Shown piece by piece: positions 29,840 to 40,193 of a stretch of DNA of 64,000 nucleotides. The position numbers and the translations under genes are program-made. A model generated the notes under the pieces. It saw only the letters and a program-made list of their open reading frames with translations, searched no databases and had not been told where the DNA came from. The stretch's first letter is position 1. Every line of letters starts with the position of its first letter. Source of the DNA: Rhizobiaceae bacterium (GTDB taxonomy: Bacteria > Pseudomonadota > Alphaproteobacteria > Rhizobiales > Rhizobiaceae); NCBI GenBank assembly GCA_019635775.1, contig JAHBYU010000003.1, positions 23,686-87,685 on the forward strand, written 5' to 3'.

Positions 29840-29965
29840 AAGCTTGTCATGTTTTTCAGAGCGTGTGCCGATTGACAGCATGCATGCCGGATGCGACGCG
29901 AACGCGCGCCTTCAGGTCGCAGTGCGACGTTCGGTGCAAACAAGGATACGCCAAGGATAGCAAGC

Positions 29966-31222
29966 ATGAGGAACGGCGTTGTCATCATCGGTGCCGGGCA
30001 TGGCGGCGTACAGGCTGCCGCGAGCCTGCGTGAAGAGGGGTATGAGGGGCCGGTCAGGCTGATCGGCGAAGAGTCCGATCTTCCCTACCACAAGCCGCCG
30101 CTTTCCAAGACCTTCATCAAGGACAAGGAAGCAAAGCCCCAGATCCTGCGCGCCGAGGCTTTCTACAGTGGCGCGAACATCGATCTCCTGCTTGGCGAAA
30201 CGGTGACGGCGCTTGACCCGGCGGCGCACCGGCTGACGCTGGCGAGCGGCGCCAGCCTGCCTTTCGACGAGGTCATACTGGCGACGGGTTCGCGGCCTCG
30301 CGCCTTGCCGGTCGATTGCGGACCGCTCGCTGGCATGCTGTCGCTGCGTTCGATCGCCGACGCCCGGGCTATACGCGATCTCGCCGCTTCTGTGGAAGAT
30401 GTCGTTATCCTTGGCGGCGGCTTCATAGGCCTTGAGATCGCCGCGACGCTTGCAGCAGGCGGCCGTCACGTCACCGTTATCGAGGCGCAGGATCGGCTGC
30501 TTGCGCGCGTGCTTCCGGCAGCCATTTCCGGTCATGTCGGCGCGCGGCTCGCGGCATCCGGCGTCCGGCTGCTGACAGGCACGACGGTCAGCAGCATCGA
30601 AGGCGAGAATGGCCATGTCAGCGCGCTCACCACGTCCGCCGGCGAACGCATACCGGCGCGGATGGTGATTGTCGGCATAGGTGTCGTGCCGAATGTCGAA
30701 CTTGCAAGTGCCGCCGGTATCAAGATCGCGAATGGCATTCGCGTCGATGCACGGATGCGATCCAGCGCGCCCGACATTTTTGCGATCGGCGACGTCGCAA
30801 GTTTCCGCCATTGGTTCACCGGGCAGGATGTGAGGCTGGAATCGGTGCAGAATGCCACCGACCAGGCAAGGCTTGCTGCGCGGACCATTGTCGGCCATGA
30901 CGAGGCCTATTCGGCCGTACCCTGGTTCTGGTCCGACATTGGCGACATGAAGCTGCAGATGGCGGGCCTCACATCCGGCAGCGACCATCAGGTTCTGTCT
31001 GGTGATCCCCAGGACAACAGGTTCTCCATCTTCCACTACAGGGACGGTCGCCTGCTCGGCATCGAATCAGTCAACCGGCCCGCCGACCACATGCTCGGTC
31101 GCAAGATGATGGGCCTTGGCTTTTCCCCCGATCCCGCCCTCGCGGCTGCCGGTACGGATGCTTTGAAGGCGGCGCTGGCCGATTGGCAGGCAAAACAGAC
31201 CGTCGCGTCAACCGGGTCTTAA
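29966..31222 (+). CDS. FAD-dependent ferredoxin reductase-like oxidoreductase
   Basis: This 418-residue flavoprotein has an FAD motif GVVIIGAGHGGVQAA at the N-terminus, an ATG box ILATGSRPR, an NAD(P) motif VVILGGGFIGLEIA and a second FAD motif IFAIGDVA. The reductase C-terminal domain follows (WFWSDIGDMKLQMAG). It belongs with rhodocoxin/putidaredoxin reductase-type enzymes that pass electrons from NAD(P)H to a [2Fe-2S] ferredoxin. The start at 29966 is chosen because AAGGA lies upstream and homology begins at MRNGVVIIG. It is divergent from the iron operon, so an electron supply to Bfd is conceivable but unproven. Confidence 0.88.
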   Translation: MRNGVVIIGAGHGGVQAAASLREEGYEGPVRLIGEESDLPYHKPPLSKTFIKDKEAKPQILRAEAFYSGANIDLLLGETVTALDPAAHRLTLASGASLPFDEVILATGSRPRALPVDCGPLAGMLSLRSIADARAIRDLAASVEDVVILGGGFIGLEIAATLAAGGRHVTVIEAQDRLLARVLPAAISGHVGARLAASGVRLLTGTTVSSIEGENGHVSALTTSAGERIPARMVIVGIGVVPNVELASAAGIKIANGIRVDARMRSSAPDIFAIGDVASFRHWFTGQDVRLESVQNATDQARLAARTIVGHDEAYSAVPWFWSDIGDMKLQMAGLTSGSDHQVLSGDPQDNRFSIFHYRDGRLLGIESVNRPADHMLGRKMMGLGFSPDPALAAAGTDALKAALADWQAKQTVASTGS

Positions 31223-31246
31223 AGTCTTGCCGCCATCTTGCACGGT

Positions 31247-31864
31247 ATGGCTGGATTAGGACTTCCCAAGCTCAGATGGCTGATCGTCGGCGCGGTTGCC
31301 GCCGGCATCTGGGTTGTTCGAGAGGACATGAAGGCGCCGCGGCCTCCCGAGCGCGTGGGCGCCCAAAGCCAGCAAAGTCCGGCAAAGGAACGTCCGCAGA
31401 AACCTGTTGCGGCAAAGTCTGACGAGCCGAAGAAGGCCGATATCCGCAAACAGGCGGAAAAGCCCGTTCCGCCCAGGCCGGTGACCGGCAAGCAGCCGAA
31501 TACACCGAAACGTGTGACGGCGCTCACCCTGCCCAGGACCGTAGAGCGTCCGCCGTCCAGGCCGCAGAAAATCGTCACCGGATCGGTCAGCCGGCCGGCA
31601 AAGCCAACTTTCATTCAGACAAGGACGAAGGTTAACCTCAGGGCGCAGGCGAGGGCGGACGCGGCGATCATCGTCACGCTCCAGCCAGGCACTGTGATGC
31701 GAGAACTGGCGCGCTCGGGCCAATGGCGGCTGGTCATGGGCGACGGACGAAAGGGCTGGTTGCGCGACGACTATGTCGAGGCGTCCAATTTTCTCAAAAG
31801 AAGGCCGAGACTGCCGGTCGCCGATGTCAAGAAGGCAGAAGCAAGTACCGGCGCAAGGCCTTAG
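31247..31864 (+). CDS. SH3-domain protein with N-terminal membrane anchor
   Basis: This protein has about 205 residues. A hydrophobic helix near the start (WLIVGAVAAGIWVV) is followed by a long Pro/Lys/Glu-rich linker (about 25-120). A bacterial SH3 domain is at about 125-180 (TKVNLRAQARADAAIIVTLQ, ending GWLRDDYVEAS). This layout suits an envelope protein that reaches peptidoglycan. The start is taken at ATG 31247; a TTG three codons earlier is possible. Function unknown beyond the domain. Confidence 0.78.
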   Translation: MAGLGLPKLRWLIVGAVAAGIWVVREDMKAPRPPERVGAQSQQSPAKERPQKPVAAKSDEPKKADIRKQAEKPVPPRPVTGKQPNTPKRVTALTLPRTVERPPSRPQKIVTGSVSRPAKPTFIQTRTKVNLRAQARADAAIIVTLQPGTVMRELARSGQWRLVMGDGRKGWLRDDYVEASNFLKRRPRLPVADVKKAEASTGARP

Positions 31865-31869
31865 ACAAT

Positions 31870-32106
31870 CTAGAAGGCGCGGAAAGTCAGCGTGGTCAGC
31901 GACCTTACGATCCCGGGAACGTTGGCGATGTGCTCGTTTATGAACTTGCCGATATCGTCCTCAGCCTCGATGTAGATCTTCATCAGCAGGTCGTACTCGC
32001 CGCTGGTGGAGTAAAGCTCGGAAACGATCTCGCGCTCGAACAGCGCATCGGCGACCTCATAGGTCTTTCCGGGCTGGCACTGGAGCTGCACAAATACGGC
32101 TCTCAT
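31870..32106 (-). CDS. Stand-alone Lrp/AsnC ligand-binding (RAM) domain protein
   Basis: This 78-residue protein consists only of the RAM domain of Lrp/AsnC regulators: MRAVFVQLQCQPGKTYEVAD, then SELYSTSGEYDLLMKIYIEA and IGKFINEHIANVPGIVRS. There is no helix-turn-helix. Such proteins can form the Lrp-type octamer core and bind amino acids, or modulate full-length Lrp proteins. It is convergent with the SH3 gene, 5 nt away. Confidence 0.88.
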   Translation of the reverse strand: MRAVFVQLQCQPGKTYEVADALFEREIVSELYSTSGEYDLLMKIYIEAEDDIGKFINEHIANVPGIVRSLTTLTFRAF

Positions 32107-32192
32107 CGAGGTTTTTCCATTGCAGACGCCGATGTTTCGTTCGGCGCCTCGTTTCCTTCAAGGCTAGTCGATAGCCCGTTGACCTCTTGCTT

Positions 32193-33023
32193 TCAATCCG
32201 CCAGCACGGCGCACGTCAAGGGGTGTTCGGATTCGGTGAGCCCGTCAATGACGTTGAAGTGGTGCCGGTCCGGCTCGACAACAAGCGCTGTCGCGCCGCC
32301 GGTTCCGATCCAGCAATTGGCCAGCAATTCGCTCTGGCGGATGAATTCGGAGCGTTCCGCGCCGCCGACCCAGAACGTCACCGGGATGCCCTCGAGCGGG
32401 TCGAGGAAGATCGGGCTTTCGGATCTGGCCTCTGCGGCGTCGATCTTGAGCGTCTCGTTCAAGCCCGTCCGCATCAGCGGCCGCAGGTCATGCAGGCCGG
32501 AAATGGACACGACGCCGCGGATACGTTGGCGGACGCGATCGGAAAGCGGGGTATCTGCGCACACCATGCGGGTTGCGAGATGCCCGCCCGCCGAATGGCC
32601 GGCGATCCGGATCGGGCCAGCGACCATGCCGGCTATCTTTTCGACGGCCTGACCGATCTCCTTCGTTATACCGGCGATCCGGTTTTCCGGGCAAAGCGTG
32701 TAGGTCGGCATGGCCACGGTATAACCCCGCTCCACCGGTCCCTTTGCGAGATGGGACCAGAAGCGCTGGTCGAATTTCATCCAGTAACCGCCGTGAATGA
32801 AGATGACGAGACCTCTTGAATCCATGTCAGGGAGGAAGAGGTCGAAGCGATTGCTCGAGCCGCTACCATATTTGACATCCAGCCTGGCCTTGCCGGCAGC
32901 GGCTCGTTCTTCGCGCCATGCCTTTGCAGGCCCAGCCCACGCGTCTGGCCAGCGATCCCCGCCGGCGATATGCGCGCCGTTGGTATAGGCGTCATCCCAG
33001 TTCAAAATGCGATGGTGGTACAT
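32193..33023 (-). CDS. alpha/beta hydrolase, kynurenine-formamidase-like
   Basis: This 276-residue hydrolase has the oxyanion motif HGGYW (IFIHGGYWMKFDQRFW), typical of arylformamidases. The nucleophile elbow is GHSAGGH, with an acid region near EGIPVTFWVGG and the catalytic His in DRHHFNVIDGL. The start at 33023 (MYHHRILNWDDAYTN) has GGAGG 6 nt upstream, so the 40-residue upstream extension is rejected. It is divergent from the DUF1989-GcvT fusion gene across a 148-bp spacer. The substrate may be an N-formyl compound, by family analogy. Confidence 0.85.
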   Translation of the reverse strand: MYHHRILNWDDAYTNGAHIAGGDRWPDAWAGPAKAWREERAAAGKARLDVKYGSGSSNRFDLFLPDMDSRGLVIFIHGGYWMKFDQRFWSHLAKGPVERGYTVAMPTYTLCPENRIAGITKEIGQAVEKIAGMVAGPIRIAGHSAGGHLATRMVCADTPLSDRVRQRIRGVVSISGLHDLRPLMRTGLNETLKIDAAEARSESPIFLDPLEGIPVTFWVGGAERSEFIRQSELLANCWIGTGGATALVVEPDRHHFNVIDGLTESEHPLTCAVLAD

Positions 33024-33171
33024 GCCGTTCCTCCGAAGGATCGCTTCATAGCCTCTGACGCGCGCCGTGTCATCGGGAGTAAGCTTGCCCGAACCGTGGG
33101 GCTTCGATATTCTCTCCATTAAAATAATGTTCCGCTGAAGCAACTTCGGCGGGCGTCAGGGATGATATCGA

Positions 33172-35541
33172 ATGCCTGAGCCAAGTTACCCCCCTGTTAT
33201 ACCTGGCCCGCCGCGGGCGAGTTCGATTGTGTTGCCTGGCGTATTTTCGCTTGGTGCGGGCAACGAGCGGTATGTTGTTGTTGGCGGTGGCGCCTTGCTG
33301 ATCGAGGTCGAGGCCGGCGACCGGGTGACTGTTGTGAACACCGAAGGCGGGCAGCCCTGCGAGCTTGTCGGGGTGGGATCTGACGGTAAGGCGGATGCCG
33401 GGCTTGTGGGGGTTGCGGCCAACAGCCATGCGGCGGGGCTGAAGGCGCTGCTGCTTTCGGGCGAGGAGAGCCTGTTGCAGTTCCGCAGGAAGATCGAGCG
33501 GCGCGGGATCGAGCTTGCGGGTGCGCAGGCGGTTCGGCTGTTCGGCGAGGCGACGCCTGCTGGGAGCGAGGAGAGCTTCGTCGTGCAGCGTGCGGGTTCG
33601 CTCATCGTGGCAGCGCCCGGCGGACCGATGGCGCCCGATGGACAGGACACGGCAACGCCGCTGACGGTTCTGGTGCGGCGTGCGGCCGTCAATCCGGTGC
33701 GTCGGTTCGAACTGCCCGACCCGCTTGCCGACCCGGTACTCGACCAGCGGGTGAAGTCGATGACGGCGCAGGCCTATTTCGTGAAGGCCGGCGACTACAT
33801 CCAGATCATTGACGTGGACGGCCGGCAGTGCACGGACTTCCAGTGCTTCTCGGCGCGCAAGTTGGACAAGGGGCGCGACCTCCCGCTCGACGTGACGACG
33901 ACGCGCACGCTGATGGGATCGAGTTACCCCATGCCGGGGCTGTTCTCGAAGTACTACGACCAGGACATGGAGCCGCTGGTAGAGGTTGTGCAGGACACAT
34001 GCGGCCGGCACGACGCCTTCGCGCTTGCCTGCGCTGCCAAATATTACGACGACATCGGCTATCCCGGACATCCCAACTGCTCGACCAACTTCAACACGGT
34101 GCTGGCCGAGCACGGCGTGACGCCGCGCGCCGGCTGGATGGCGGCGAACTTCTTCTTCAACACCGCCATCGACGCGCATGGGCTCGTCGTGTCCGACGAG
34201 CCGTGGTCGCGGCCGGGCGACTATGTGCTGATGCGCGCGCTGACGGACCTCGTCTGCGTCTCGTCGGCCTGTCCCGACGATACCTCTCCGGCCAATGGCT
34301 GGAACCTGACCGACATCCACGTTCGCACCTATAGCGGGGCGGAGAAGTTCACACGAGCGATAGCCAGAAGAATGAGCCCGGACGCCGAACCCGTCATGAC
34401 CCGCGAGACCGCCTTCCATTCACGCTTTGCGCGGCACACGCGCGACTTCATCGAATACAAGGGCTACTGGCTGGCCAACTCCTTCGCCAAGGCCGGACCG
34501 ATCGAGGAATACTGGGCCTGCCGGGAGAAAGCGGTGGTGATGGATCTGTCGCCGCTCAGGAAGTTCGAGGTGACGGGACCGGATTCGCAGGCTCTGCTGC
34601 AATATGTGCTCACCCGCGACGTGAAGAAGCTGTCGGTCGGCCAGGTGGTCTATTCCTCGATGTGCTACAAGCATGGCGGCATGATCGACGACGGCACGCT
34701 ACTGAGGCTTGGGCAGGACAATTTCCGGTGGATCGGCGGCGATGACTTCAGCGGCACATGGCTGCGCCAGCAGGCAGAGAAGCTCGGCCTGAAGGTCATG
34801 GTCCGTTCCTCCACGGACCAGATGCACAACATCGCGGTGCAGGGGCCGAAGAGCCGCGACATCCTGAAGGAGATCATCTGGACATCGCCGAAGCAGCCGT
34901 CGATGGACGAACTGGAATGGTTCCGCTTTGCGGTGGCGCGCATCGGCGACGCGCAAGGGGTACCGGTGGTCGTCTCGCGCACTGGTTACACGGGCGAACT
35001 CGGCTACGAGATCTTCTGCCACCCGCGCGACGCCGAGACGGTGTTCGACGCCGTGTGGGAGGCCGGCCAGCCCCACGGCCTGAAGCCGATGGGCATGGCT
35101 GCGCTCGACATGGTGCGCATCGAGGCGGGCCTTGCCTTCGCCGGCCATGAGTTCACCGACGACACCGATCCGTTCGAGGCAGGCGTCGGCTTCACCGTGC
35201 CGCTCAAGTCCAAGCCCGACGACTTCATCGGCCGCGACGCGCTGATCCGCCGCAAGGAACATCCCGCCCGCAAGCTCGTCGGGCTGGAGATCGATGGCAA
35301 CGTCAATGTCGGCCACGGCGATTGCGTCCATGTCGGCCGGCCGCAGATCGGCGTCGTCACCTCATCCATGCGCTCGCCCGTGCTGGGCAAGAACATCGCG
35401 CTCGCCCGCGTCGACGTCGCGCATTCCGAACCCGGCACAAAGGTCGAGATCGGAAAGCTCGACGGCCACCAGAAGCGCCTGCCCGCAACCATCGTAACGT
35501 TCCCACACTTCGACCCGCAAAAAACAAGGCCAAGATCGTAA
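33172..35541 (+). CDS. Fusion of two DUF1989-like domains with a GcvT aminomethyltransferase domain
   Basis: This is a 789-residue multidomain protein. Residues 40-175 resemble a degenerate DUF1989 unit (EVEAGDRVTVVNTEGGQPCE). Residues 200-390 are a full DUF1989 (urea carboxylase-associated) domain: FVKAGDYIQIIDVDGRQC, then Cys277, His280, Cys287, His300, Cys303, Cys362 and Cys367, likely metal ligands. Residues 410-785 are a GcvT tetrahydrofolate-binding aminomethyltransferase, with RTGYTGELGYEI at 603-614 and RIEAGLAFAGHE near 649-660. DUF1989 pairs elsewhere act as carboxyguanidine deiminase. The fusion implies C-N chemistry coupled to folate one-carbon transfer; the substrate is unknown. 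It may share regulation with the divergent hydrolase gene. Confidence 0.9.
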   Translation: MPEPSYPPVIPGPPRASSIVLPGVFSLGAGNERYVVVGGGALLIEVEAGDRVTVVNTEGGQPCELVGVGSDGKADAGLVGVAANSHAAGLKALLLSGEESLLQFRRKIERRGIELAGAQAVRLFGEATPAGSEESFVVQRAGSLIVAAPGGPMAPDGQDTATPLTVLVRRAAVNPVRRFELPDPLADPVLDQRVKSMTAQAYFVKAGDYIQIIDVDGRQCTDFQCFSARKLDKGRDLPLDVTTTRTLMGSSYPMPGLFSKYYDQDMEPLVEVVQDTCGRHDAFALACAAKYYDDIGYPGHPNCSTNFNTVLAEHGVTPRAGWMAANFFFNTAIDAHGLVVSDEPWSRPGDYVLMRALTDLVCVSSACPDDTSPANGWNLTDIHVRTYSGAEKFTRAIARRMSPDAEPVMTRETAFHSRFARHTRDFIEYKGYWLANSFAKAGPIEEYWACREKAVVMDLSPLRKFEVTGPDSQALLQYVLTRDVKKLSVGQVVYSSMCYKHGGMIDDGTLLRLGQDNFRWIGGDDFSGTWLRQQAEKLGLKVMVRSSTDQMHNIAVQGPKSRDILKEIIWTSPKQPSMDELEWFRFAVARIGDAQGVPVVVSRTGYTGELGYEIFCHPRDAETVFDAVWEAGQPHGLKPMGMAALDMVRIEAGLAFAGHEFTDDTDPFEAGVGFTVPLKSKPDDFIGRDALIRRKEHPARKLVGLEIDGNVNVGHGDCVHVGRPQIGVVTSSMRSPVLGKNIALARVDVAHSEPGTKVEIGKLDGHQKRLPATIVTFPHFDPQKTRPRS

Positions 35542-35548
35542 GCGGATG

Positions 35549-36562
35549 CTAACGGATGGCCGAGAAGACCCGGAAGCCGTTCTCGTTGCGAAGCTCATCG
35601 ACTTTCCGGAAGGAAGCCTTGATGACCGGTTCGTAAGGCAGGCCGCGGTTTGCGACCATCAGCAACTTCCCGCCGGGCTTCAGCGCTGACGCCGCCCGGC
35701 CGATCATGGCTTGGCCGATACCAGGTTCGGCAGCACGGCCCTGATGGAAAGGCGGGTTCATGACGATGAGGTCGTATTTCCGCTCGACCGGCTCGCCGAC
35801 CAGATCCTGCCAGAAAAAGCCGAATGCCGGTGGCTGCGGCAGGTCGGCAAGGTTGCGCCTGGCGGCTTCCAGCGATTCATAGTCGGCTTCGTAAAGGTCG
35901 ATCGACGCAAGCCCCTTGGTGCGTTCCGCGAGCATCGCCGACAGATAGCCCCAGCCGGCGCCGAAATCGGCAGCAGCGCCCTTGCCCGTTTCGGGCAGGC
36001 ACTCCACCAGCAGGTTCGATCCCGTATCGAGCCGTTCGTGCGAGAACATGCCGGGCGCGGTCGTGTAGCGGTTTTCGACGAGGACAGGCGGCGACCGCAG
36101 CACGGCGACGCGTGACGTGTCCTCTGGTCGCCTGAACCAGAACGCGACGCCATGATGCTTCGGCAGCGAATCGTCGGTTCCCACGAGCTTGTTGACGCGC
36201 TTGCGAAGCGACCCGATGCCGTCTTCGTTGCTGCCGGCAACCACGATCAATCCACCCGGTACGACGCGTTCCACGGCCTCGGCGATCCAGTTCTCGTTCT
36301 GGCCGCGGTGCCGACCTGCGAGCACGAGCGCGCCATCGTAGCCCGATCCCTCAGGGAGTGCCGATATCGTGTTTCCCGACGCTTCAAGAGCGCGAAAATG
36401 CGGACGAAACCCCTGGACGAGATGCAGGGTCGCCGCGAACCCTTCGGGCGCATGAAATCCGGGCTCCGCGCCTAGGAACAGTAACCGTTCACCACCTGCC
36501 GAGGCAAGCGTGCCGCTTTCGAACGGGTAAAACAGCGTGGCGAGGGGGCGACTTGGCTTCAT
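35549..36562 (-). CDS. Class I SAM-dependent methyltransferase, RsmC-like
   Basis: This protein has about 337 residues and a two-domain layout like RsmC. A degenerate N-terminal methyltransferase-like domain is followed by a catalytic domain with AADFGAGWGYLSAML (SAM motif I), the DLYEAD acidic loop and the NPPFHQG motif IV used for exocyclic amine methylation. The expected target is guanine in 16S rRNA (m2G1207), by family. The start at MKPSRPLATLFYPF is preferred over a 15-codon extension. It is convergent with the fusion gene, 7 nt away. Confidence 0.85.
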   Translation of the reverse strand: MKPSRPLATLFYPFESGTLASAGGERLLFLGAEPGFHAPEGFAATLHLVQGFRPHFRALEASGNTISALPEGSGYDGALVLAGRHRGQNENWIAEAVERVVPGGLIVVAGSNEDGIGSLRKRVNKLVGTDDSLPKHHGVAFWFRRPEDTSRVAVLRSPPVLVENRYTTAPGMFSHERLDTGSNLLVECLPETGKGAAADFGAGWGYLSAMLAERTKGLASIDLYEADYESLEAARRNLADLPQPPAFGFFWQDLVGEPVERKYDLIVMNPPFHQGRAAEPGIGQAMIGRAASALKPGGKLLMVANRGLPYEPVIKASFRKVDELRNENGFRVFSAIR

Positions 36563-36666
36563 GTTATGCTGGATCCGTTTCGTGCTGGACCTTCGGCTAA
36601 CCGCCAATGGCGCAGGACGCTTCTTCGTGCACCGTGTAGACTGCGACGCGAACCGAGGAAACCATC

Positions 36667-37746
36667 ATGTGGCGCGACCGGCGTGTTCTCGATCTTTTTG
36701 GCATCAAACACCCGATCCTTCTAGCGCCGATGGCAGGCCCGGTTTTGTCAGAAATGGCGATCGCTGTCGCAAAGGAGGGCGGGCTTGGCTCCCTTCCTTC
36801 GGCCATGCTGAGCCCCGAACAGACCCGCACTGAAATGGAAAAATTCCGCGCGGCTGTGAAGGCCCCGGTCAATCTCAACTTCTTCTGTCATACGCCCCCG
36901 GCACAGGACGAGAAGCGCGAGGCGGCATGGCGAGCTAGACTGGCACCTTACTACGACGAGTTGGACATAGATCCCGCGGCGCCGATTCCTGTCTCCAGCC
37001 GTACGCCCTTCGACGAAAATCTTTGCCAGATGGTCGAGCAACTGCGACCCGAAGTCGTCAGCTTTCATTTCGGCCTGCCGCCGGAGGTGCTGGTCGCCCG
37101 CGTCAAGGCGTCCGGAGCAAAGGTCATATCTTCCGCGACGACGATCCGCGAGGCGATCTGGCTGGAGGAACGAGGCTGTGACGCGATCATTGCGCAGGGT
37201 TCCGAGGCTGGAGGACACAGGGGTATTTTCCTCTCTAAACACACCGATCGGCAGGTCGGCACAATGGCTCTTGTCCCCCAGATGGTTGACGCAGTGAAGG
37301 TTCCGGTGATCGCCGCTGGAGGCATAGCCGACGGGCGTGGCATCGTCGCCGCACTGGCGCTCGGCGCTTCGGCCGTGCAGATCGGCACGGCCTATCTGTT
37401 CTGCCCGGAGGCCAAGGTCAACGCACCGCACCGGGCCGCGCTCAAGGCTGCATGGGATGATGACACCGTTCTGACGCGCGTCTTCACCGGACGGCCGGCG
37501 CGCGGGATCGCAAACCGAATCGTGAGCGAGATCGGCGCGATGTCTGATTTGCCACCCGAGTTCCCGCTCGCCGGAGGAACGATCATGCCGTTGCGCGGCA
37601 AGGCGGAGCCGGCCGGCTCCGGGGATTTCACGCCGCTCTGGTCTGGGCAAGCGATGCGGCTTGGCCGCGAGATGCCGGCGACGGAACTGACCAGGACACT
37701 CGTTGAGGAAACGCAGGCGCGATTGCGCCAGATGACGCCTGGCTGA
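36667..37746 (+). CDS. Nitronate monooxygenase / NAD(P)H-dependent flavin oxidoreductase
   Basis: This 359-residue FMN enzyme of the 2-nitropropane dioxygenase family is a TIM barrel. It has IKHPILLAPMAGPV at the N-terminus, QGSEAGGHRG near 175-185 (FMN phosphate and catalytic His region) and IAAGGIADGRGIVAAL near 215-230. Members oxidise alkyl nitronates and detoxify propionate 3-nitronate. It is convergent with pnp; a strong hairpin separates the stops. Confidence 0.9.
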   Translation: MWRDRRVLDLFGIKHPILLAPMAGPVLSEMAIAVAKEGGLGSLPSAMLSPEQTRTEMEKFRAAVKAPVNLNFFCHTPPAQDEKREAAWRARLAPYYDELDIDPAAPIPVSSRTPFDENLCQMVEQLRPEVVSFHFGLPPEVLVARVKASGAKVISSATTIREAIWLEERGCDAIIAQGSEAGGHRGIFLSKHTDRQVGTMALVPQMVDAVKVPVIAAGGIADGRGIVAALALGASAVQIGTAYLFCPEAKVNAPHRAALKAAWDDDTVLTRVFTGRPARGIANRIVSEIGAMSDLPPEFPLAGGTIMPLRGKAEPAGSGDFTPLWSGQAMRLGREMPATELTRTLVEETQARLRQMTPG

Positions 37747-37752
37747 AATAAG

Positions 37753-37780
37753 AAAGGGCGCAGCTTTTGCTGCGCCCTTT
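37753..37780. terminator. Bidirectional intrinsic terminator between nitronate monooxygenase and pnp
   Basis: A perfect 12-bp stem (37753-37764 with 37769-37780) has a TTTT loop. The stem ends in AAA/TTT on each side, giving a short T tract in both directions. It is placed 7 nt after the plus-strand stop and 26 nt after the pnp stop. Confidence 0.85.
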
Positions 37781-37805
37781 GAAGCAATCCGAACGTTGCG
37801 GAATA

Positions 37806-39965
37806 TCAGGCAGCGCTTTCCGCGCCTTCATCACCCTCGGCCTTCTTCTCGGGCTTAGGCAGTTCCTTGCCAGTGGTCTGGTCGACGACTTTCATCGACA
37901 GGCGGACCTTGCCGCGCTCATCAAAGCCCATGAGCTTGACGAAGACCTTCTGGCCTTCCTTGACCACGTCCGACGTCTTGGCGACGCGGTCGTTGGCGAG
38001 CTGGGAGATGTGAACGAGGCCGTCCTTCGGACCGAAGAAGTTGACGAAGGCGCCGAAGTCGGCGGTCTTCACCACGGTGCCTTCGTAGATCTCGCCGACT
38101 TCCGGCTCGGCCACGATGGTGTGGATCCACTTCTTGGCCGCTTCGATCTCCTTGGCGTTCGACGAAGCGATCTTCACCGTGCCGTCGTCCTCGATGTTGA
38201 TCTTGGCACCGGTCTTCTCGACGATCTCGCGGATCACCTTGCCGCCGGAACCGATGACATCGCGGATCTTGTCCGTCGGAACATGCATGACCTCGATGCG
38301 CGGCGCGAATTCACCGAGTTCGGCGCGTGCGCCGGAAAGCGCATTGCCCATCTCGCCGAGGATGTACTCGCGTCCACCCTTGGCCTGGTCGAGCGCCACC
38401 TTCATGATCTCTTCGGTGATGCCGCTGATCTTGATGTCCATTTGCAGCGAGGTGATGCCGTCACGCGTGCCGGCCACCTTGAAGTCCATGTCGCCGAGAT
38501 GGTCTTCGTCGCCGAGGATGTCGGAGAGCACCGCGAAGCGCTCGCCTTCCTTGATCAGGCCCATCGCGATGCCGGCCACCGGCTTGGTGAGAGGAACGCC
38601 CGCATCCATCAGCGCCAGCGAGGTGCCGCAGACGGTTGCCATCGAGGACGAGCCGTTCGACTCAGTGATCTCGGAGACGACGCGTAGCGTGTAGGGGAAC
38701 TGCTCGGCTGCCGGAAGCATCGGGCGAATTGCGCGCCAGGCGAGCTTGCCGTGGCCGATCTCGCGACGGCCTGGCGAACCCATGCGGCCTGTTTCGCCGA
38801 CGGAATAGGGCGGGAAGTTATAGTGGAGAAGGAACTTCTCCTTGTACATGCCGGTCAGGCTGTCGACGTACTGCTCGTCTTCGCCGGTGCCGAGCGTGGC
38901 AACAACCAGCGCCTGGGTCTCGCCCCGCGTGAACAGCGCCGAGCCGTGGGTGCGCGGCAGAATGCCGACTTCCGACACGATCTTGCGGACCGTCGAGAGG
39001 TCGCGGCCGTCGATGCGCGATGCAGTGTCGAGGATGTTCCAGCGCACGATCTTGGCCTGGAGTTCCTTGAACACCGTGGCGACCTGCTCGGCCGACCATG
39101 CGGTTTCTTCTGCACCTTCCGGCAGCAGCGTTGCCTTGACCTTGGCCTTGGCTGCGTCGACGGCGGCGTAGCGGGCCTGCTTGTCGACATTCTTGTAGGC
39201 AGCGCGCAGTTCGTCCTCGACAAGGCCGAGCATGGTGCTCTCGAGTTCGGAAAGATCTTTAACCTGATGGTCGCGCGGCTCCTTGGCGGCGACTTCCGCC
39301 AGCTTGATGATCGCGTCGATCACCGGCTGGAAGCCCTTGTGACCGAACATGACGGCGCCGAGCATGATATCCTCGGGAAGCTCTTGGGCTTCCGATTCAA
39401 CCATCAGGACGGCTTCACCCGTGCCGGCGACCACAAGGTCGAGCTTGGACTCAGGCATCGTGTCGATATGCGGGTTGAGCACATACTCGCCGTTGATGTA
39501 GCCGACGCGTGCGCCGCCGACCGGGCCCATGAAGGGCACGCCCGAAAGTGTCAGCGCGGCCGAGGTTGCGACGATCGACAGGATGTCCGGATCGTTTTCC
39601 ATGTCGTGCTGCAGGACCGTTACCACGATCTGCGTGTCGTTCTTGTAGCCTTCCGCGAAGAGCGGGCGGATCGGACGGTCGATGAGGCGGGAAACCAGCG
39701 TTTCCTTCTCGGAGGGCCGGCCTTCGCGCTTGAAGTATCCGCCGGGAATCTTGCCTGCGGCGAATGTCTTTTCCTGATAGTTTACGGTCAACGGAAAGAA
39801 GTCGAAGCCGGGCTTGGGTTCCTTGGCCGAGACGACCGTGGCGAGAACGACCGTTTCGCCGTAGGTGGCAAGCACTGCGCCGTCAGCCTGGCGGGCGATC
39901 TTGCCGGTTTCGAGGATGAGCGGACGACCGCCCCATTCAATTTCCACTTTATGTTGCTTGAACAT
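37806..39965 (-). CDS. pnp: Polyribonucleotide nucleotidyltransferase (PNPase)
   Basis: This 719-residue 3'-5' phosphorolytic exoribonuclease is a degradosome-type enzyme. It has two RNase PH domains, the second containing [15 protein letters not shown] and [18 protein letters not shown] domain ([20 protein letters not shown]) and a C-terminal S1 domain ([18 protein letters not shown]) follow. The start is at [13 protein letters not shown], with AAGGAC 6 nt upstream; a longer in-frame extension is rejected. It lies downstream of rpsO, the conserved rpsO-pnp order. Confidence 0.96.
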
Positions 39966-40193
39966 GTCTTGTCCTTGTGTAGGGGAAGAGCGGCGTAGCC
40001 TTTGCCACGCCGGCAATCCCTTCCCTGGCTTCGTTCGGGCGAGCCACGGGCAAGACAACGGGAAGCTCGTTGAAAGCGGACATGTGCCCGAGCGTCCTGC
40101 AATCCTGCCCCATGACCGTCCATGGGCGGCTCTCGCCGGACCCCTTCCGGTTCGAACCCTGTAGGCCGCTTTTTATCGCGGCCCGAATACGAA

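Follow-up and report, generated by a model that had tools for sequence, protein, structure and literature searches.

The window analyzed here is a stretch of 64,000 nucleotides from the draft genome (36 contigs) of a Rhizobiaceae bacterium. Its forward strand carries an open reading frame (33172..35541) with an ATG start, which encodes a protein of 789 aa. The question is which reaction this protein catalyzes. The original prediction, made from the sequence, proposed that it may belong to an uncharacterized catabolic route. In an NCBIfam search, the protein passed the TMAO demethylase equivalog NF053776 with 1268.3 bits (cut-off, 1100). A phmmer search against the PDB returned 9q59_A (1215.8 bits) and 9q5a_A (1208.5 bits), with residues 5–789 covered. 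The PDB entries 9q59, 9q5l, and 9q5a, all named trimethylamine N-oxide (TMAO) demethylase, aligned with the window protein across this same range. At two positions of the DUF1989 domain, 9q5a has Ala, whereas 9q59 and the window protein have Asp. Because the Tdm equivalog was passed, PDB Tdm chains were matched, and the metal ligands were invariant (see below), the protein is not uncharacterized. As a whole, the best explanation is that the gene is tdm and that its product is almost certainly a TMAO demethylase, placed in the pathway from trimethylamine to methylamine and accompanied by a second, near-identical copy. The part of this explanation that concerns gene conversion is held with less confidence.

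Pfam confirmed the reading frame and the domain order that had been proposed. The DUF1989 metal domain occupies residues 193–361 (33748..34254, + strand; PF09347, E = 1.9e-45). It is followed by a GCV_T domain at residues 416–674 (34417..35193, +; PF01571, E = 4.1e-68) and a GCV_T C-terminal barrel (GCV_T_C) at residues 700–781 (35269..35514, +; PF08669, E = 4.1e-19). In front of them, a DUF1989-like domain without metal cysteines was placed at about residues 31–170 (33262..33681, +) from weak profile matches, an AlphaFold2 model, and the fold assignment given for the Methylocella silvestris enzyme in PMC12560246. The original prediction that a first half without metal cysteines is fused to DUF1989 and GcvT parts was supported. 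The same three-domain layout, with a cysteine-less first DUF1989-like domain, was published in 2025 for M. silvestris Tdm (PMC12560246, section 2.1). According to that paper, such a first domain occurs throughout Tdm homologs.

M. silvestris Tdm holds zinc by three cysteines and converts TMAO to dimethylamine and formaldehyde at 1:1, most likely with the substrate's own oxygen, as described in the parts of PMC12560246 concerned with the reaction. Its site residues (C263, C279, C343, H276, D198, and D346) were mapped onto the window protein by position and residue identity, not by aligning the M. silvestris sequence, and a single offset of 24 fitted all six. In the window protein, C287, C303, and C367 would bind zinc, and H300, D222, and D370 correspond to the rest of the proposed site. 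All six were invariant in 26 of 26 alignment rows; C367 and D370 fall just beyond the Pfam DUF1989 match (193–361). Judged from orthology and these conserved residues, the Zn/Fe site of the second DUF1989 domain would convert TMAO to dimethylamine and formaldehyde. The two enzymes are alike in their three domains, in the residues of the proposed Zn/Fe site, in a Leu at the position of the GcvT folate Arg, and in an N-terminal domain lacking metal cysteines. No functional difference was seen. A difference is that here there are two near-identical gene copies in a single genome.

Two segments of the same pattern had been predicted, and these are present, with motifs beginning at residues 45 and 203. 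The N-terminal half of the window protein received no Pfam call, and its trimmed segment scored E = 0.29 for DUF1989. Trimmed segments (about residues 25–173, second domain excluded) were taken from the window protein and nine relatives out of the 26. Eight of these ten matched DUF1989 at E up to 1, four at E < 0.01, and the best at 3.4e-4. The other two had no match, and none of the ten reached the Pfam cut-off of 27 bits. The matches always fell inside the first ~42 profile positions, in register. With longer cut-outs (residues 1–192), 22 of 26 matched at E up to 1, and the window's own had no match. A profile–profile comparison with hhalign, using trimmed and non-overlapping cut-outs, paired the same hairpins over 40 columns, weakly (probability 26%, E = 7e-4). 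An hhalign run on longer N-terminal cut-outs was discarded; it matched only the linker common to both cut-outs. The AlphaFold2 model of residues 1–192 was strand-rich (pLDDT 79.5, pTM 0.70; one of the 26 rows of its input alignment was wrong). On these sequence comparisons, the repeat exceeds chance. As a sequence pattern over about 40 residues (profile matches in register), the predicted DUF1989 tandem thus holds, and the claim for a whole domain leans on the model of M. silvestris Tdm built with AlphaFold (PMC12560246). The first domain most likely serves structure and oligomerization.

Two loci in the genome scored above the Tdm cut-off, the window copy and a copy on the reverse strand of contig C2 (C2:54823-57192; L003:8823-11192). 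The second copy was 99.53% identical to the first over 2345 bp, with 11 mismatches. In the window this stretch is 33200..35544, with no mismatch across 33562-35415 (1854 bp). At their 5' ends, the two coding sequences differed at 15 of the first 28 nt, after which identity set in abruptly. Identity stopped three bases beyond the stop codon and was confined almost to the coding sequence. All 11 mismatches lay within the first 362 bases or the final 129, and when 11 mismatches were placed at random 200,000 times, no identical run as long as 1854 bp arose. That one gene had been seen twice was rejected on account of the different flanks and the 11 mismatched positions. A contaminant origin of the C2 contig is unlikely. 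The G+C content was 62.4% in the C2 stretch and 62.5% in the window. One gene, located some 6 kb away from the tdm of C2, had its only match there and was 82, 77, and 73% identical in three congeners.

Among 297 genomes of the family, 68 had a tdm match at E ≤ 1e-100, with at most three candidates scored per genome. On the same basis, two tdm genes were found in 4 of the 68, namely the window genome, G208, G165, and G225. The copies were near-identical in the window genome and G208, and divergent in the other two. No DNA match was found between the two copies of G165 or between those of G225, and all were near importer-type genes (L119-L122). The second tdm-like genes of these two genomes share only 42–48% identity with the window protein and may act on a different substrate.

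The G208 copies, which lie on one contig (1.64 and 4.74 Mb), were 99.67% identical over 2427 bp, with 8 mismatches and a longest identical run of 2226 bp. Their near-identical stretch extends 72 bases beyond the stop codon and includes a hairpin. Mesorhizobium sp. 1M-11 came from another collection, in which it was among the best 80 of 424 relatives. It had 2351 bp of identical tdm sequence in four contig-end pieces (L052, L053, L054, and L110); this genome is a draft, and its identical contig ends may stem from a single consensus collapsed during assembly. Its contigs end at or near the limits of the 2351-bp stretch, which is what a multi-copy repeat would produce. Contig ends near tdm as a sign of hidden copies were rejected, as more than one full-length tdm was found in 1 (1M-11) of 12 genomes, most but not all of which had been chosen for contig ends at or near tdm.

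Next to the C2 tdm are importer genes of the betaine/choline/TMAO type, and then homologs of TorR, TorS, and TorT. The permease passed the NCBIfam choline permease model (389 vs. 363 bits), which leaves its substrate, of the choline/betaine/TMAO type, putative. The ATPase passed the betaine/proline/choline subfamily (337.6 vs. 326.6 bits), and the binding protein gave only a weak ProX match. The TorR homolog scored 301.4 bits, above the cut-off of 275, and the TorS homolog scored 673.8 bits, just under 676.5. The TorT homolog passed NF008185 (372.6 vs. 200 bits) and stayed below the cut-off of TIGR02955 (294.1 vs. 310). No TMAO reductase TorA was found above cut-off in the window genome, where the best score was 655.9 of 1465 bits. 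TorR, TorS, and TorT homologs lie beside tdm in three genomes (L003:15496-19232 and L129:1167-2270; L118:2159-7089; L052:1094-5860). In G208, one tdm copy is flanked by TorT, TorS, and TorR, and the best importer permease match is about 6 kb beyond torR. In 1M-11, one contig carries importer genes, TorR, and TorS between two tdm pieces, plus a TorT-like gene. The adjoining TorTSR homologs suggest a regulator of TMAO demethylation. If this is true, TMAO demethylation would be served by a sensor system known from the anaerobic respiration of TMAO.

Why the two copies are so alike was examined with the window genome, G208, and 1M-11. Over all aligned columns, tdm identity was 98.9, 99.3, and 99.5% within these genomes; from one of the three to another it was 76.0, 76.4, and 81.7%. 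A tree of 16 chosen sequences paired the copies by genome, with support of 1.00 in all three genomes. Thus, in three genomes the copies were more alike within a genome than orthologs were between genomes, which is the pattern of concerted evolution. Near-identity within genomes, despite 76–82% between genomes, points to gene conversion that keeps the copies alike. Judged from the sequence pattern, gene conversion is the most likely cause, and we are less confident of it than of the enzyme's identity.

A different account is that the second copy arose by a very recent simple duplication instead of conversion between older copies. The high identity of the copies would fit it, and so would a single tdm match in each of three other genomes of the genus, in one of which (G003, 87% complete) a contig breaks inside tdm. 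Against it, the homologous stretch starts within the 5' codons in three genomes. Further, the aligned stretch of G208 opens with six differences in its first 21 nt, all of them synonymous and at third codon positions, unlike a recent copy. Finally, G091, which has the importer permease nearest to that of C2, has a tdm placed as on C2, yet differing. We therefore consider a simple duplication unlikely, though it is the strongest of the alternatives.

Conversion between older copies also agrees with the relationships of the C2 cluster. Its permease was 80% identical to that of G091, and the best matches of the congeners were 43–44%. In G091, tdm lies directly behind the importer permease and is cut by the contig end. 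The C2 tdm was 73.5% identical to that of G091, and 84.6 and 82.1% identical to those of the congeners G002 and G001, respectively. With the permease nearest to G091 and the tdm nearer to the congeners, the cluster appears to have a history different from that of its tdm. From these few genomes, we infer that the resident tdm may have overwritten the cluster's own copy. In the 5' part, C2 agreed with G091 at five of six mismatch sites. The direction of conversion stays tentative, because three of those five sites also agree with G001. Assigning the 28-nt 5' remnant of C2 to the G091 type was rejected, as the remnant is too short.

A broader reading follows the same lines. Some genomes of the family Rhizobiaceae would keep a resident tdm and another tdm in a TMAO-sensing cluster (TorT-TorS-TorR and importers). 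Conversion would repeatedly rewrite one with the other, so that a cluster of outside origin gets the resident enzyme and TorTSR then serves demethylation. We regard this reading as somewhat more probable than its opposite.

Homologs of other steps of the pathway are encoded elsewhere in the genome. The contig of the window (C23) encodes a trimethylamine monooxygenase (Tmm; NF058570, 856 vs. 675 bits) near importer-type ABC genes, a type III glutamine synthetase (TIGR03105, 673 vs. 469.6 bits), and a sarcosine-oxidase-alpha-type (soxA-type) protein (1488 vs. 1164 bits). The genome has two HODM-like homologs (PF11927), one on C23 and one on C31. The HODM-like, type III glutamine synthetase, and soxA-type homologs would stand for the DMA monooxygenase, GMAS, and N-methylglutamate steps. 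These steps are partly covered in PMC8918994 and PMC4543880. With these homologs present, Tdm fits into a route from trimethylamine to methylamine. The HODM-like, GcvT-like, type III glutamine synthetase, sarcosine-oxidase-alpha-type, and trimethylamine monooxygenase genes of C23 lie in two stretches, C23:121001-141000 (L128) and C23:283001-296000 (L127). A broken importer gene on C23, with one internal stop, was considered and rejected, as an uninterrupted 660-codon ORF is present there.

The direct neighbors of the window tdm include no TMAO genes; a lipase-like gene lies on one side and an RsmC-like gene on the other. The gene order of the window at 29891-40058 (reductase, lipase, tdm, rsmC-like, NMO, and pnp) recurs in Mesorhizobium sp. 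YM1C-6-2 (L036). The single tdm of G002 has neighbors other than those of the window order.

The protein might be a Tdm relative whose substrate has shifted to another tertiary amine oxide or a methylated osmolyte. This would suit the position of the window tdm between lipase-like and RsmC-like genes, shared with YM1C-6-2, where one tdm was found, and also the C2 permease passing a choline model. However, the score is far above the Tdm equivalog cut-off, TorTSR homologs adjoin the near-identical copy, and Tmm and homologs of the downstream steps are encoded in the genome. A shifted substrate is therefore very unlikely.

Most of what concerns TMAO demethylase here is in print already. The enzyme, its architecture, and its folate independence have been published, and the original finding turns out to be a known enzyme with a known architecture, closed by published work. 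The near-identical second copy is the less expected part, and the paired copies and the link to TorTSR may be new. In the PMC literature, which leaves most subscription journals outside, no earlier report of paired tdm copies or of a TorTSR–tdm link was found. PMC6053082 describes concerted evolution that lasts long as rare among prokaryotes, and the words trimethylamine and demethylase are absent from that paper's main text. This side result (paired copies and TorTSR) is of modest weight. A catabolic enzyme that stays near-identical in two differently placed genes would offer a testable example of conversion that serves dosage or double regulation.

The GcvT part had been predicted to pass a product to folate, and this was not borne out. 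The Arg of the GcvT motif GLGARD (1yx2 and 1woo alignments) corresponds to L645 in the window protein, and Leu was found in 26 of 26 rows. This Arg is probably the folate-contacting Arg named in PMC12560246. According to that paper, Arg-to-Leu and Tyr-to-Phe changes have impaired the folate site of Tdm, the M. silvestris enzyme works without THF, and its formaldehyde release drops slightly when THF is added. Given this slight effect, some folate binding by Tdm may remain. The window protein, with L645 in place of the motif Arg, scored 224.2 bits for the gcvT equivalog TIGR00528, not reaching its cut-off of 235.85. It did not reach the cut-off of the NCBIfam DMSP demethylase model either.

UAAP1 and UAAP2 are urea amidolyase-associated proteins, which the original prediction linked to CgdA and CgdB. 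They have a DUF1989 domain in common with the window protein, and their models (198 and 233 positions) lack a GcvT part. Membership in either was rejected, with 88.9 of 284.7 bits for UAAP2 (TIGR03424) and 43 of 205.95 bits for UAAP1 (TIGR03425). Thus, the original idea that merged carboxyguanidine deiminase-like subunits pass a one-carbon unit to folate, in an uncharacterized route for a guanidino- or formimino-type compound, can draw on the common DUF1989 domain and the presence of GcvT domains, but it is hardly credible and the least probable of the readings, as both UAAP scores are far below cut-off while the TMAO demethylase equivalog is passed, the motif Arg is Leu in every row, and published Tdm needs no THF (PMC12560246).

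By sequence, GcvT, DMSP demethylase, and the C-terminal region of dimethylglycine oxidase have a GcvT-type domain in common with the window protein. The assembled enzyme probably depends on the GcvT domain of Tdm, which may hold formaldehyde, as a remnant for assembly or formaldehyde handling that would not require folate. For all three relatives, the match was confined to the part of the window protein after residue ~404.
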